Assembly (NCBI RefSeq): GCF_017115025.1
Contig: NZ_JABXKM010000032.1
Coordinates: forward strand, 1 to 33,499
Source of the DNA: Nostoc sp. NOS(2021)
Lineage (GTDB): Bacteria; Cyanobacteriota; Cyanobacteriia; Cyanobacteriales; Nostocaceae
Length of the DNA stretch: 33,499 bases
Reading direction: 5' to 3'
Shown: piece by piece, positions 12,293-29,907 of the stretch
Layout of the letters: every line of letters starts with the position of its first letter
Numbering within the stretch: the stretch's first letter is position 1
The notes under the pieces: model-generated
Databases searched by the model: none
Told to the model about the DNA's origin: nothing
The model's input: only the letters and a program-made list of their open reading frames with translations
Position numbers and translations under genes: made by a program

Positions 12293-12332
12293 GGGCATTG
12301 GGGATTGGGCATGGGGCATGGGGCATTGGGGA
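12293..12332. repeat. Heptamer-type short tandem repeat in a gene leader
   Basis: Degenerate GGGCATG/GGGCATT/GGGGATT units run directly up to the start codon of the minus-strand O-methyltransferase. This matches the short tandemly repeated repetitive sequences known from heterocystous cyanobacteria. Confidence 0.7.
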
Positions 12333-12333
12333 C

Positions 12334-12364
12334 TTATCCACGAGTCTTTGATACTCGTGGATAA
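12334..12364. repeat. Perfect 12-bp hairpin, loop CTTTGAT
   Basis: Arms TTATCCACGAGT and ACTCGTGGATAA are exact reverse complements around the 7-base loop CTTTGAT. The first 18 bases are identical to 29458-29475, the entry to the 42-bp hairpin array. Confidence 0.85.
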
Positions 12365-12422
12365 GTGTTTGATAGTCGCCAACGATTTTTTAGAAGTCAA
12401 AATTATCTTTAAATGTAGATTG

Positions 12423-12696
12423 TAATGATTGTGCCAAAAGCGATCGCGCAGGCGGATGAGAGTTTGTGTAATCGCGAATTCTATTCGCCCTGGCTCTAAG
12501 TTGACACCCATGAGCATTGCTGTGCCCTTACAACATTTGCATCAGATTACTCTAACAGCTATGTAGATTGATTACAGGACTTACGCACAAGCAACGGAAA
12601 ATCGAACCACAGAGGACACGGAGGAATAAGAGTTTGGGAGGTTTTTTGCGTAAGTCCTAGATTAATGATTGTGCCAAAAGCGATCGCACAATCATT
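12423..12696. repeat. Repeat cluster left of the integrative element
   Basis: A 25-bp direct repeat starting TAATGATTGTGCCAAAAG occurs at 12423-12447 and 12663-12687; the second copy forms an 11-bp hairpin (AATGATTGTGC/GCACAATCATT, 12664-12696). Between them lie a partial copy of the CGCGAATTCTATTCGCC repeat (about 12473-12489, as at 994-1011) and an 83-bp MITE-like element at 12576-12658. Confidence 0.75.
12576..12658. mobile_element. 83-bp MITE-like element
   Basis: Perfect 12-bp terminal inverted repeats AGGACTTACGCA (12576-12587) and TGCGTAAGTCCT (12647-12658) enclose a short non-coding core. A related single end, AGGATTTACGCA, lies at 33302-33313. Confidence 0.75.
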
Positions 12697-12698
12697 CT

Positions 12699-12718
12699 AT
12701 ATGTAGAAATATTGCATA
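12699..12718 (+). other. Putative attL core repeat
   Basis: The core TGTAGAAATATTGCATA (12702-12718) matches 15351-15367 at 16 of 17 positions, and the match extends upstream by TAT with one mismatch between. The first arm-type TGAGCATT starts 52 bases after it. Confidence 0.5.
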
Positions 12719-12770
12719 AAACATCTATAATGCTTTAATAGCAGTTGCCTCAAAACTGACTTCCACCAAT

Positions 12771-12789
12771 TGAGCATTTATTGAGCATT
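12771..12789 (+). promoter_or_regulatory. Pair of TGAGCATT arm-type sites before int
   Basis: TGAGCATT occurs at 12771-12778 and 12782-12789, exactly 11 bp apart, about one helical turn. The second copy abuts the integrase ATG at 12790, so a protein bound there would also block its translation start or transcription. Matching pairs occur at the other end of the element. Confidence 0.5.
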
Positions 12790-14244
12790 ATGGTAAACAG
12801 CGCAAAAACACCAACAGGTAGGGCTAAAAAGGGGTTAGTAACCATCAGACCTGATGGTGAATACATCAAGGCTTGTTTTCCCCGTTCACCGTTCCCAGGT
12901 GAAAAGGCACAAGTGAAACGAGCTATAGGTATTCCACTAGTTGATGGTTGGGAAGGCAAGGCTAGCCAGTTGCAGAGTCGATTACAGCTTGAATTAGATG
13001 AAGGGAAGTTAGCCGCCCCCGGTGGGATGTTCAATCTGAAGCGATTCAACGAAATCTTGGTTGAGTACAAACTAAGACCGGATCTAAAAATAGTAGAGAG
13101 TGCCGTAACCTCGGATGGTCAGCTACCCCCTAAACCTCAGTTATCACTGATGGAAGTGTGGGATATGTATTGTGAACACAGGAAACATGGGCTTGCTGAA
13201 ACAACCTATGAACTCATGTACAAAGGTCAGTACTCAAATTATCTTCAGGATGCTATCGTTGCCGTGGGTTGTGAGGATGCAATAAAAATAAAAAATTGGT
13301 TGATTGAGAATAGAAGCCTAGCTGTTGTTAAATGCGTTATAAGTAATCTGTCAAAAGCCTATCATGTGGCTATCAGGCAAGGATTAATCAAAGCTTTCAA
13401 TCCCTTTGAGGAGTTTAGAGAAGAAACAGCAAAAGCGGGAAAACAAGGATATACATCAAAAACAAAGGATAAAGATTGTGAGAACGATAAAGATATTCTT
13501 GACAAATCAAAAGCATATACATGGAATGAAGTAGAGGCAATACTTGAGTATGTAAAAGATAATAGTAGAGTGTCGTATTGGTACAACTTTATAAAATTCA
13601 AATTCCTTACTGGTGTACGAACTGGTGAGGCTATTGGATTATGGTGGAGAGATGTTAAATGGGAAAATGAATGTTTAACAATTCAACGAACTTATAGCAA
13701 TGCAATTAAAAAAACTTTAGATACAAAAAACGAGACACCTAGATTTTTCCCCATGCCAAGAGACGGGGAATTGTGGAAGCTTTTAAAGTCTATTCCACAA
13801 GGGAAACCGAATGATACAGTTTTCAAAAGTAAGACAGGAAAAATAATAGGTAGGTCTTACTTTAATGCTGTTTGGTCAGGGCTTGCTTGTCGCAACATTA
13901 AAGGCATAATTCCAGAATTAATAGAGCAAGGCAAGCTTACCAAGTACCTGCCACCTTACAATACTCGTCACACATTCATCACTCACCAAGTATTTGAAGT
14001 GGGTGTTGATGAGAAAATAGTTGGCGCATGGTGTGAACATAGTGAAACAACGTCTAGAAAACATTACCAAGATATCGCTGACAGGGCATCAAGAGTTGTC
14101 CCAGGTTACGGAACACCAGCTACCACTACTCAGCAAGTTCAGCAACAATCTGAGATTGACCTACTTAGGGAACAGAATAAATTGCAGCAAGAACAAGTGG
14201 AAGAATTAAAAAGAGTGCTTGAAAGGTTAACTAAAGATAGCTAA
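12790..14244 (+). CDS. Tyrosine recombinase (site-specific integrase)
   Basis: The 484-aa protein has an N-terminal arm-binding-like region, a core-binding domain (about 115-205) and a catalytic domain (about 240-430). R277 lies in FLTGVRTGEAIGLWW, a lysine in the beta-hairpin (KTLDTKNETPR), R393-H394 in PYNTRHTFITH, H417 in WCEHSETT, and the nucleophile Y426 in RKHY. The box II histidine of the family (HxxR) is Tyr390 (YNTR). A coiled coil at about 455-484 (REQNKLQQEQVEELKRVLER) closes the protein. A TTG nine bases upstream is also in frame, but ATG 12790 is preferred. It is the first gene inside the putative attL, oriented inward. Confidence 0.93.
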   Translation: MVNSAKTPTGRAKKGLVTIRPDGEYIKACFPRSPFPGEKAQVKRAIGIPLVDGWEGKASQLQSRLQLELDEGKLAAPGGMFNLKRFNEILVEYKLRPDLKIVESAVTSDGQLPPKPQLSLMEVWDMYCEHRKHGLAETTYELMYKGQYSNYLQDAIVAVGCEDAIKIKNWLIENRSLAVVKCVISNLSKAYHVAIRQGLIKAFNPFEEFREETAKAGKQGYTSKTKDKDCENDKDILDKSKAYTWNEVEAILEYVKDNSRVSYWYNFIKFKFLTGVRTGEAIGLWWRDVKWENECLTIQRTYSNAIKKTLDTKNETPRFFPMPRDGELWKLLKSIPQGKPNDTVFKSKTGKIIGRSYFNAVWSGLACRNIKGIIPELIEQGKLTKYLPPYNTRHTFITHQVFEVGVDEKIVGAWCEHSETTSRKHYQDIADRASRVVPGYGTPATTTQQVQQQSEIDLLREQNKLQQEQVEELKRVLERLTKDS

Positions 14245-14269
14245 ATATTATTAGTCCAAGTCAATGGTC

Positions 14270-14301
14270 AATACTCTCTAATCAACTGGAGAGTATTTTT
14301 G
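14270..14301 (+). terminator. Rho-independent-like terminator after int
   Basis: Stem AATACTCTC (14270-14278) and GAGAGTATT (14289-14297) with a 10-base loop is followed by TTT. It lies 26 bases past the integrase stop and would separate int from the downstream small gene. Confidence 0.65.
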
Positions 14302-14378
14302 TGTTAAAAATTATTGCTTTGGTTGACTTAATTAAATAACTAAATTAAATTATTGCTTAATCAATTTTCATCAATATT

Positions 14379-14705
14379 ATGGATGAGAAAAACTGTAGGC
14401 GATGCAAGCATTTTAATATTGAAATTAACTCAAATCATGTTGTGGCAATGGAATGTCCATACAAGAGCGATGATAATAATTTAAAATTTAGAAAAAGTCA
14501 AATGGAAGATGTTTTTGAAATAATTGTTGATGAATGTGAATTTTACAAAGACACGGGTAATTTTAACAAAGACTATTATCGAGATGTAAAAAATCAAACA
14601 ATACCACGCCAACAAACCGAGCTTGACCTAATGAAAGAGCAAAATCAATTACTTAAGCAACAGGTTGAGGAATTGAAGAAGCTACTTCAGGACAGAGATA
14701 GCTAA
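14379..14705 (+). CDS. Small four-cysteine protein with integrase-like C-terminal coiled coil
   Basis: The 108-aa protein is not recognised as a named family. Cysteines 6, 9, 26 and 53 (NCRRCKHF, MECPYK, DECEFY) could bind zinc. The tail at about 79-108 (ELDLMKEQNQLLKQQVEELK) aligns with the integrase tail (EIDLLREQNKLQQEQVEELK): about two thirds of positions are identical, and both genes end GATAGCTAAA. A heteromeric coiled coil with the integrase is the simplest idea, for example a directionality or regulatory factor; this is inference. The gene is AT-rich like the integrase and lies 134 bp downstream of it, behind a terminator. Confidence 0.75.
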   Translation: MDEKNCRRCKHFNIEINSNHVVAMECPYKSDDNNLKFRKSQMEDVFEIIVDECEFYKDTGNFNKDYYRDVKNQTIPRQQTELDLMKEQNQLLKQQVEELKKLLQDRDS

Positions 14706-14877
14706 ACCTCTATTATTTGTAGTACTCTAAGAACTACTCTAAGTAACACTTCAAGAACTATCAATTATGCGTATCAATGGAAAGCTACTTCGCGATCGCA
14801 ATTTAGGGCCCAATGCCCAATCTTGATTCTGTTACTTTTTCAAGTTAAGGTGGTAGAACGTATACAGGATAGGGATT

Positions 14878-15180
14878 ATGGTAAGGGAAGACAGTAATAG
14901 TCACGGTGGCAAGCGTAGCGGCGCTGGTAGGGCGAGTAAATGGGGTGAAGGTGTGAAGACTCAGATTTACCGCCTACCACCTTCCCTTGGTGATAATGTT
15001 GAGGAGATGGCAAGGGAACTGGAAAGTCTACGGCACGTCCTTGATAACTGGCAATTAAAGGTGGATGAAAGCAAGGGGAAGTCAGCGACGGGTCAACCTG
15101 GGGAAAGGTACAAATATGTGGCTCAACTGGTGAGTGAGTTAAAACAGGCAATGGAGGTGATGGGAAGTGTCGTAAATTAG
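14878..15180 (+). CDS. Small basic DNA-binding-like protein (GGKRSGAGR motif)
   Basis: The 100-aa protein begins with a basic glycine-rich motif (HGGKRSGAGRASKWGEG) followed by a strand-helix segment (KTQIYRLPPSLGDNVEEMAR). Proteins with such GxRxGAGR starts and ribbon-helix-helix-like segments are common in phages and integrative elements. The rest is helical and charged. A purine-rich GGATAGGG at 14867-14874 can serve as ribosome binding site. It is the last gene before the TGAGCATT cluster and the putative attR, a position suited to an excisionase or repressor; the function is not shown. Confidence 0.75.
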   Translation: MVREDSNSHGGKRSGAGRASKWGEGVKTQIYRLPPSLGDNVEEMARELESLRHVLDNWQLKVDESKGKSATGQPGERYKYVAQLVSELKQAMEVMGSVVN

Positions 15181-15215
15181 CAAATCAGTTTACGACCCGT
15201 TTACACTCCCCAAGG

Positions 15216-15318
15216 TGAGCATTAGTTGAGCGCGGTTATTGAGTGTTACTTGCTTGACTGATATGGTGAAAATAGGGTGTTTGAGCATTATGTGAGCATT
15301 TTAATGAATAGAATGCTC
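15216..15318. promoter_or_regulatory. TGAGCATT site cluster near putative attR
   Basis: Sites are TGAGCATT 15216-15223, TGAGCGCG 15227-15234 (11 bp on), TGAGTGTT 15240-15247, TGAGCATT 15282-15289 and 15293-15300 (again 11 bp apart), and an inverted AATGCTC at 15312-15318. The last direct pair ends 50 bases before the putative attR core, mirroring the left end. Confidence 0.5.
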
Positions 15319-15347
15319 CAAAGTCTTTTATTTAGCTTAATTTAGTT

Positions 15348-15367
15348 ATGTGTAGACATATTGCATA
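15348..15367 (+). other. Putative attR core repeat
   Basis: TGTAGACATATTGCATA (15351-15367) repeats the left core with one mismatch. It lies about 100 bp upstream of the phosphoribulokinase-family start codon, so insertion would have replaced or displaced that gene's original upstream region. Confidence 0.5.
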
Positions 15368-15464
15368 CCAAGTCTTTGCTTGAGTTACTCGCCTAAACCC
15401 TTCTAGAATTAAAACTATTGTAGGGAATTTTATTAATAAACTTGCTTTTATTGTGGGAGGTATG

Positions 15465-16403
15465 ATGAGCCGTCCAATAATTCTTGGTATTGTCGGCGAC
15501 AGCGCTGCTGGAAAAACAACACTAACGCGAGGAATCGCTCAGGTACTCGGCCCAGAAAATGTCACGATCATCTGCACAGATGATTACCACCGTTACGATC
15601 GCCAACAACGTGCAGAAATTGGCATCACTGCTCTCCACCCGGACTGCAACTATCTAGATATTATGCAGCAACACCTGTCGTTGCTACGCACAGGACAGCC
15701 AATTCTTAAGCCCGTTTACAGCCATAAAACCGGCACATTCGAGCCACCGCAGTATATCAAGCCCAATAAATTCGTGATTATTGAGGGATTACTCGGTTAT
15801 TCTACTCGTGCCGCTCGTGACTCTTACGATGTTAAAGTTTACCTTGCACCCCCGGAAACACTACGCTCTAAGTGGAAAGTCAAGCGGGATACGCAAAAGC
15901 GCGGCTACACTGCTGAACAAGTGTTAGCGGAACTAGAAAAGCGCGAATCAGACTCAGCACAATTTATTCGTCCGCAACGGCAATGGTCTGATATAGTCAT
16001 TAGTTTCTACCCACCCACTGAGGACGATGATGAAACCAATGGACACCTGAATGTCCGTCTGGTACTACGTCCGACAATTCCCCACCCAGATTTTACCCAG
16101 ATTATCAACTCTGGCTATGGTAATTCTGACTCAGCGATTCGCTTGGGGCTGGACAGGGATATGAGTAAGCCCGTAGATGTTTTAGAAGTTGATGGTCATG
16201 CCACCTTAGATCAGGTGAATAAGCTAGAGCATATTATTTGTTCTGATATGCCCCATTTACGAAATATTTGCGATCGCGAAAGTAATCCAGAACTGGGTAA
16301 AATTGCTGGTACAACTGGGGAGACAATCCAGAGTTATCCCCTCGCTCTGACTCAGTTAATCATTACCTACCATATGCTGAAAGCAACGCAAATCTATCAG
16401 TAA
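15465..16403 (+). CDS. Phosphoribulokinase/uridine kinase family protein (PRK paralogue)
   Basis: The 312-aa protein has the P-loop GDSAAGKTT at 11-19, ICTDDYHRYDRQQRAEIGIT at 36-55 (the ribulose-5-phosphate-binding stretch), and KPVYSHKTGTFEPPQYIKP. All are features of phosphoribulokinase, which makes ribulose-1,5-bisphosphate in the Calvin cycle. The canonical cyanobacterial enzyme carries a redox cysteine in its P-loop (GDSGCGKST); here that residue is alanine (A15), while the second cysteine (C37) remains. Thioredoxin/CP12-type control through the Cys pair is therefore unlikely. It is probably a second, divergent PRK, perhaps with a different pentose substrate. GGGAGG at 15455-15460 supports ATG 15465 (or 15462, three bases before). 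Confidence 0.9.
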   Translation: MSRPIILGIVGDSAAGKTTLTRGIAQVLGPENVTIICTDDYHRYDRQQRAEIGITALHPDCNYLDIMQQHLSLLRTGQPILKPVYSHKTGTFEPPQYIKPNKFVIIEGLLGYSTRAARDSYDVKVYLAPPETLRSKWKVKRDTQKRGYTAEQVLAELEKRESDSAQFIRPQRQWSDIVISFYPPTEDDDETNGHLNVRLVLRPTIPHPDFTQIINSGYGNSDSAIRLGLDRDMSKPVDVLEVDGHATLDQVNKLEHIICSDMPHLRNICDRESNPELGKIAGTTGETIQSYPLALTQLIITYHMLKATQIYQ

Positions 16404-29351: not shown

Positions 29352-29457
29352 TTCGTAATTAAGAAAGCCAGAATTTAATTGGTCTTTCCAGGTTGGCATC
29401 TGTCGCCTACTTTCAAGAATTGGTATGAGCAATTCGCCTATTTCGCGTTAAGTTTAT

Positions 29458-29721
29458 TTATCCACGAGTCTTTGAACTCCATTAATGAGCCTTTGATACT
29501 CATTAAAGAGGTTCTGAACTCCATTAATGAGTCTTTGAGCTTCATTAAAGAGGTTCTGAACTCCATTAATGAGTCTTTGATACTCATTAAAGAGGCTTTG
29601 AACTCCATTAATGAGCCTTTAATACTCATTCAAGAGGCTTTGAACTCCATTAATGAGCCTTTGAGCTTCATTAAAGAGGCTTTGAACTCCATTAATGAGT
29701 CTTTGATACTCGTTCAGCAGT
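29458..29721. repeat. Tandem array of 6 x 42-bp hairpin units
   Basis: Units begin at 29470, 29512, 29554, 29596, 29638 and 29680, each made of two related 21-mers (CTTTGAACTCCATTAATGAG and CTTTGATACTCATTAAAGAG, each plus one base). Each unit can form TTAATGAGT / loop CTTTGAT / ACTCATTAA or a close variant; 29566-29590 is perfect. The entry sequence TTATCCACGAGTCTTTGA (29458-29475) equals the left side of the hairpin at 12334. The period is a multiple of three, so a 144-codon frame on plus (29379-29813, TTG start) and frames on minus stay open; these look incidental. Nothing else is found in 29352-29950 except a terminator. Confidence 0.88.
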
Positions 29722-29907
29722 ATTTTAGACTTGTGGCTTGGTTGTCGGAGATTGCGATCGCCATAATTCACCCAAAAGCACATCCTAAACCAAAGAATCT
29801 GGATATGCACTAAGCGCTCTGAGACATTCTGCTAGCATTTCCAGTGATTTTCTTTGCCTTCACGCAACCCACAAACATACTGATTTAGCAAACGTAATAT
29901 CCTGATT

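Follow-up and report, generated by a model that had tools for sequence, protein, structure and literature searches.

A 2649-bp element encoding a predicted tyrosine recombinase lies between 21-bp direct repeats beside the phosphoribulokinase gene prk of Nostoc sp. NOS(2021), and it probably arrived when a circular form recombined site-specifically with a 21-bp site (probability roughly 0.9). The window, i.e., the whole stretch of DNA analyzed, spans 33,499 nucleotides. The element is bordered on the left by an O-methyltransferase gene (Pfam) and on the right by prk (NCBIfam). Its repeats (TATATGTAGAAATATTGCATA on the left and TATGTGTAGACATATTGCATA on the right) are identical at 19 of 21 positions and start 2649 bp apart. 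The earlier note had placed them at 12699–12718 and 15348–15367, with about 18 of 20 positions in agreement; they are real and each one base longer, beginning at 12698 and 15347, respectively. Direct repeats of this quality (19/21, spaced by at least 1 kb) were absent from all 60 dinucleotide shuffles of positions 12500–15600. Only three ORFs of at least 80 aa are present on the int strand within the element, and searches of Pfam, NCBIfam, and PHROG recognized no replication, transfer, or structural genes inside it, as the earlier note had held. The window contains neither tRNA nor tmRNA, which rules out a tRNA as the target, and no RNA family reached gathering score in 12300–15800. No second copy of the element was found in the window's genome; the one other match shared 32% identity.

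The decisive test of insertion, proposed in the earlier note, used the prk loci of related genomes and came out in its favor. A prk-like match was detected in 59/59 genomes searched (own included), though several order-level genomes among the 58 relatives match only a second kinase; we inspected the loci of 29 relatives, all of the window's genus and excluding the window's own. In this comparison, a single core joined the flanks in all 29 loci, with no element upstream of prk and with the break at the core rather than away from the repeats. To the right of the relatives' core is the same conserved sequence that begins at 15368 in the window, and the distance from core to prk start codon is 94–99 bp in the relatives and 94 bp in the window. 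Sequence left of the core varies among the relatives, and the stretch from the core through the prk start codon is conserved. Compared with the core pattern, 23 of the relatives' 29 cores are exact, one has one mismatch, one has two, and four have three. At no more than one mismatch, the core occurs in 60 of 217 family genomes, including 47 of the 53 from the same genus (own included); the window's genome is alone among the 217 in having two cores on one contig. When the flanks are joined at the window core, a 28-aa frame is the only product, i.e., the site is non-coding and no gene is interrupted. Because the relatives show a single core and no element, the alignment indicates that the conserved region upstream of prk has gained 2649 bp at its outer edge, with the right repeat rebuilding that edge. 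Moreover, int is not confined to one pair of flanks: integrase-bearing relatives sit at other sites and have other cores. The two window cores differ at two positions, and both lack the G at position 11 found in most relatives. Since they differ both from each other and from this common G, the insertion may be old; alternatively, core mismatch may be tolerated.

Table 1. Positions of the element's features and of its host target within the window.
Feature	Position	Strand	Evidence
Left core repeat (attL core)	12698..12718	+	19/21 match to right copy; single copy at 29/29 relatives' loci inspected
TATAATGCT: predicted int -10 box (12726-12731) overlapping inverted arm unit AATGCT (12729-12734)	12726..12734	+	Consensus scan; putative function
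Left arm pair TGAGCAT-N4-TGAGCAT	12771..12788	+	11-bp-spaced pair in 32/34 loci compared; putative Int binding
int, tyrosine recombinase, 484 aa	12790..14244	+	ATG 12790, stop 14244; Pfam PF00589 (Phage_integrase) E 5.3e-13; PHROG integrase E 7.3e-34; model matches Tn1549 and lambda integrases
Terminator-like hairpin just 3' of int	14270..14297	+	Pattern scan: 1 found vs 1.9 expected in shuffles, weak by itself
108-aa ORF: Cys-containing head and tail resembling C-terminus of family integrases	14379..14705	+	Alignment; tblastn to relatives' Int tails
100-aa GGKRSGAGR protein, tentatively an accessory factor (guess)	14878..15180	+	22 database matches (itself included); 71% relative in L115
Outer right arm pair with modified second unit TGAGCGC	15216..15233	+	66 bp from inner pair
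Inner right arm pair TGAGCAT-N4-TGAGCAT	15282..15299	+	
Inverted arm unit AATGCT	15312..15317	-	
Right core repeat (attR core)	15347..15367	+	Restores outer edge of conserved prk upstream region; 19/21 match to left copy; single-copy core in 29/29 relatives' loci
Predicted prk promoter TTGAGT-18-TAGAAT (host)	15380..15409	+	Consensus scan; conserved in alignment of 29 relatives
prk, phosphoribulokinase (host target gene)	15462..16403	+	NCBIfam phosphoribulokinase model E 1.5e-145

Pfam, PHROG, and predicted fold all place the element's largest gene among the tyrosine-recombinase integrases, and it faces inward as previously proposed. Int is full length and retains the conserved residues. Its structural model adopts the Tn1549/lambda recombinase fold, with 14–19% identity across the aligned fold; by our reading of this model, the head of three strands and a helix resembles arm-binding domains. 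Database searches at E 0.001 returned 172 proteins matching Int. Twelve phage records matched, the widest at 24.8% identity over 86% and the best (E 2e-26) at 30.4% over 64%, as did four plasmid records (widest 28.1% over 89%). No Int relatives were confirmed in viral contigs. A phage or plasmid origin of Int was rejected on these record and viral-contig searches. We also rejected defense cargo as an explanation of the gene content: PADLOC gave no match for int or the 100-aa protein, and two matches of the 108-aa ORF near E 0.008 were taken as chance.

Arm-type repeats flank the core on both sides, in an arrangement like that of the relatives and of lambda- and Tn916-type attP sites. A single base separates the left arm pair from the int start codon; 52 bp separate the left core from this pair and 47 bp separate the right pair from the right core. 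The attP measures approximately 220 bp up to the int start. The order of arm, core, arm, and integrase had been recognized in the earlier note, and it stands, with pairs at both ends and a layout common to relatives; the note had missed the outer right pair and the inverted AATGCT units. This outer pair is partly decayed, and its spacing from the inner pair is 66 bp, compared to 76–87 bp wherever else two right pairs occur. A predicted int promoter, TAGAAA-16-TATAAT, matches the consensus at 10 of 12 positions.

Both small genes reported previously are present as ORFs, but one of them looks like a fragment of another integrase's tail. Residues 45–104 of the 108-aa ORF align with the C-terminus of the window Int (score 105, whereas 300 shuffles gave nothing above 51), and the score against the integrase of a related element, L072, is higher still at 137. 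One database protein matched this ORF, at 98%. It is likely that the tail of another family integrase has here been fused to a short Cys-containing head. The 100-aa protein has residues strongly conserved within its family, and its model, considered for an excisionase fold, predicts only two helices, i.e., a helical hairpin, after a disordered head (mean pLDDT 70.5; first 23 residues <50). Neither small protein matched a named family in Pfam or NCBIfam, and no model in these libraries names an excisionase among the small ORFs; our guess is that the 100-aa protein is the best candidate for a directionality or regulatory factor.

Related integrases (E < 1e-90) were detected in 29 of the 217 family genomes (own included), with relatives sharing 38–60% identity. 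Most of the loci inspected have the same motifs upstream of int, i.e., AATGCT at the same place, a dyad, and TGAGCAT-N4-TGAGCAT near the start codon. A pair of 7-bp repeats spaced by 11 bp precedes int in 32 of 34 integrase loci compared; L074 and L110 lack it, and L100 and L122 represent one place. Eleven loci had been left out of this count beforehand: L033, L092, and L099 (same places as other loci), L089 (cut), L075 to L080 (truncated or distant integrase), and L126 (masked bases). The repeat is TGAGCAT in 26 of the 32, TGAGCCA in two, TGAACAT in two, and TGAGTAA/TGAGTAT in two. Each variant arm repeat corresponds to one supported subclade of two loci; the TGAGCAT loci do not form one clade.

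Both ends were bracketed for 13 elements, namely that of the window and L036, L068, L069, L070, L071, L072, L112, L113, L115, L116, L118, and L125. Twelve contain two right arm pairs, some with altered units, and L118 contains only one. A core repeat was located in 12 of the 13 (that of L118 being a 97-bp repeat) and none was found for L125; core-to-core sizes range from 2.1 to 19.8 kb. In 11 measured elements, 69–82 bp lie between the end of the core and int, and 47–58 bp between the end of the inner right pair and the core. The cores are 8 to 22 bp long. They vary from element to element apart from two shared sites, one in L068 and L070 and the other in L113 and L037; for L068, L070, L115, and L116, the search covered a narrow stretch beyond the arms and gave cores of just 8 to 11 bp. 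L037 retains int and both exact cores, has no right arms, and is an int-only remnant. As judged from these alignments, the attP plan is a family trait and the elements are mostly at different targets.

We joined the flanks at 11 loci and compared the resulting reading frames. Joining yielded a 399-aa frame at L036 (vs 208 and 35 at the ends) and a 369-aa frame at L115 (vs 176 and 120), and it gave the gene its start back at L068, L070, and L071. There was little frame gain at L112 and L116 and none at L069, L072, L113, or the window, as expected for the non-coding site of the latter. Inspection by eye suggests that the genes restored in L036, L115, L068, L070, and L071 encode a RecQ-like helicase, an aminotransferase, Cas4 (twice), and a phosphoglycerate-mutase-like protein.

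The larger family members share a gene set comprising small proteins, a long protein cluster (11 loci), and a P-loop protein recognized by eye (9 loci). Their P-loop ATPase was detected in 14 of the 217 family genomes, weakly in some; it was not found in the window's genome (95.7% complete), and neither phage records nor viral contigs contained the P-loop protein. Two of the ten L112 proteins had a PHROG match below 1e-5, and those L112 and L068 proteins tried against Pfam gave sub-threshold matches only. The 7.9-kb element L115 is satellite-like, encoding a D5/DUF5906 primase and the 71% relative of the 100-aa protein.

In the mechanism we propose, a circular form of the element would recombine with the 21-bp site upstream of prk upon entry, and exit would be the reverse reaction. 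By analogy with lambda- and Tn916-type integrases, we expect the head of Int to bind the TGAGCAT pairs and its catalytic part to engage the core. Int would thereby bridge arm pairs and core, recombine attP with the target, and leave one core on each side. The host would likely be spared, because one core remains at each end and the right copy leaves the sequence upstream of prk intact. Bound Int would likely also repress int, as suggested by the left pair abutting the int start and the inverted unit overlapping the predicted -10 box; the 100-aa protein might act in directionality or regulation. Having no recognized transfer or particle genes, the element would depend on a helper to move between cells. 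A joined attP, as expected of a circular or tandem form, was found in 0/217 family genomes and in no viral contigs, and assemblies rarely hold rare circles. Present-day mobility of the window element is unproven, given that no circular form was found in assemblies or viral contigs.

These observations leave almost even odds, if somewhat short of them, that the window holds the same kind of element in relic form, no longer mobile and reduced by deletions from a larger relative, with int still open and excision lost. Such decay is consistent with the core mismatches (one near the center), the decayed outer arm pair, the missing circle in the 217 genomes and viral contigs, and debris of an integrase tail that is closer to another family integrase than to the element's own Int; the remnant L037, with exact cores and no right arms, is a precedent. 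Set against this, Int keeps its full length and its conserved residues, the inner arms carry unaltered repeats, and the 100-aa gene is open and belongs to a strongly conserved family. Larger family members could be helpers or parents of the minis, and we are doubtful of the stronger view that the element is a non-autonomous hitch-hiker moved by 14–20-kb members that would supply transfer. While the same arms and core spacing recur in 14–20-kb elements sharing a gene set, and L115 combines a primase with a relative of the 100-aa protein in a satellite-like manner, the search of the window's genome yielded no large-element ATPase and nothing marks the large elements as viruses or mobile, with no phage-record or viral-contig match. 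Equally speculative, and unlikely to hold in full, is the view that one Nostocales integration module (integrase, 11-bp-spaced arm pairs, and a target-changing core) is common to 14–20-kb elements of an unrecognized and perhaps viral type, primase-bearing satellite-like elements, and two-gene minis, with the window mini a natural hitch-hiker whose insertion would restore the promoter edge of a Calvin-cycle gene and so spare the host.

Heterocyst-forming cyanobacteria carry developmentally excised elements that interrupt nifD, hupL, fdxN, and other genes, as described in an excerpt of PMC4874684 on tyrosine-recombinase elements of this group. The window element resembles these in its filamentous cyanobacterial host, the recombinase gene near one end, and the flanking direct repeats, and several of its relatives interrupt genes likewise. 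We nevertheless consider it very improbable that the window element is of this type, as it interrupts no gene, prk lies downstream of the restored site, and the excerpted text does not mention phosphoribulokinase. Integrase genes are common (84/118 genomes), such that one might lie by chance within a repeat pair as an ordinary genomic gene; this possibility is negligible and was ruled out by the empty sites, with the break at the core in 29/29 loci inspected, and by the result of 0/60 shuffles. Entry by site-specific recombination thus remains our preferred reading.

Tn916/Tn1549- and lambda-type systems have paired arm repeats around the core. The window element shares this arrangement and the integrase fold, but differs in containing no conjugation or phage genes; a Tn916/Tn1549-type conjugative transposon was ruled out, as none of the three ORFs is a transfer gene. 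The Tycheposons of Prochlorococcus are likewise cyanobacterial tyrosine-recombinase elements with a common integration module; they use tRNA sites, whereas the window has no tRNA, a comparison made by description.

With an integrase between att repeats and no signature replication, transfer, or virion gene, the window element corresponds to the small cryptic integrated elements, a class described for archaea (PMC6563490, in excerpt). According to the same excerpt, the smallest such element of Thaumarchaeota, NitUzo-E2, is 2.6 kb and encodes a winged-helix protein and two others besides its integrase. The two are near-equal in size, each with an integrase and a few small genes between direct repeats and no recognizable replication or transfer genes; compared by description, they differ in that thaumarchaeal elements have archaeal hosts and a winged-helix protein, whereas the small proteins of the window match no named family. 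The PICMI phage satellites of Vibrionaceae, as excerpted from PMC10803314, are defined by int, alpA, and a primase at fis, with 17-bp repeats. They too are small integrase elements between repeats, and L115 comes close to their gene content in combining an integrase and a DUF5906 primase with a small conserved protein. Membership of the window element in PICMI was ruled out, as its three ORFs include no AlpA or primase match and it sits at prk rather than fis. Minimal integrated elements are thus already known elsewhere; we recognized no description of this family in the open-licence literature.

The analysis defines, from sequence alone, a compact module of one enzyme, an attP of ~220 bp, and a 21-bp target found in 47/53 same-genus genomes, which, if functional, would be a possible integration tool for filamentous cyanobacteria. 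The same ends tie tiny elements to 14–20-kb elements, whose genes have few counterparts in the libraries searched. The family also provides natural experiments in how enzymes came to use many targets, with variant arm repeats that track enzyme subclades.

Elements of 14-20 kb that encode integrases of the same family as the tyrosine recombinase of the window element share a common gene set, which was found in other genomes (at loci L112, L113, L068 with L081, L070 with L082, and L125); part of this set is also present at L090, L117, L121, L124, and L126. Few of the shared genes have matches in Pfam or PHROGs, and one protein of the set, read by eye as a P-loop protein, had no match in phage records or viral contigs. 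These larger elements are possibly an unrecognised family of viruses or plasmids.

The 19-kb elements at L068 and L070 lie in two genomes at an identical insertion point within one gene, whose sequence reads by eye like cas4. A single genome (G258) carries two 16-kb elements, at L112 and L113, with unlike cores; in the L113 copy, the P-loop gene is split into two pieces as read.

A dyad is present ahead of the integrase gene, and its letters vary from element to element. Perfect stems of at least 6 were observed at 17 of 31 loci, compared to 2.0 expected from shuffles; the stem in the window is 5, with a probability of 0.07 by chance in shuffled sequence. The dyad may form a hairpin within the leader of int.

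Features of the window
Feature	Position	Composition	Setting
Dyad	12738-12754 (equivalent place in relatives)		Between predicted -10 box and left arm pair
Short inverted repeat	12576-12658	AGGACTTACGCACAA / TTTTGCGTAAGTCCT, arms separated by 53 bp	A short distance left of window element
144-aa ORF	29379-29813	Built from ALNSINEPLILIKE-type repeats	

The short inverted repeat is perhaps a MITE-like repeat. Elsewhere, L037 (5912-7462) is a 1.5-kb remnant in which two exact 19-bp cores flank the integrase, with the left arms retained and the right arms absent.
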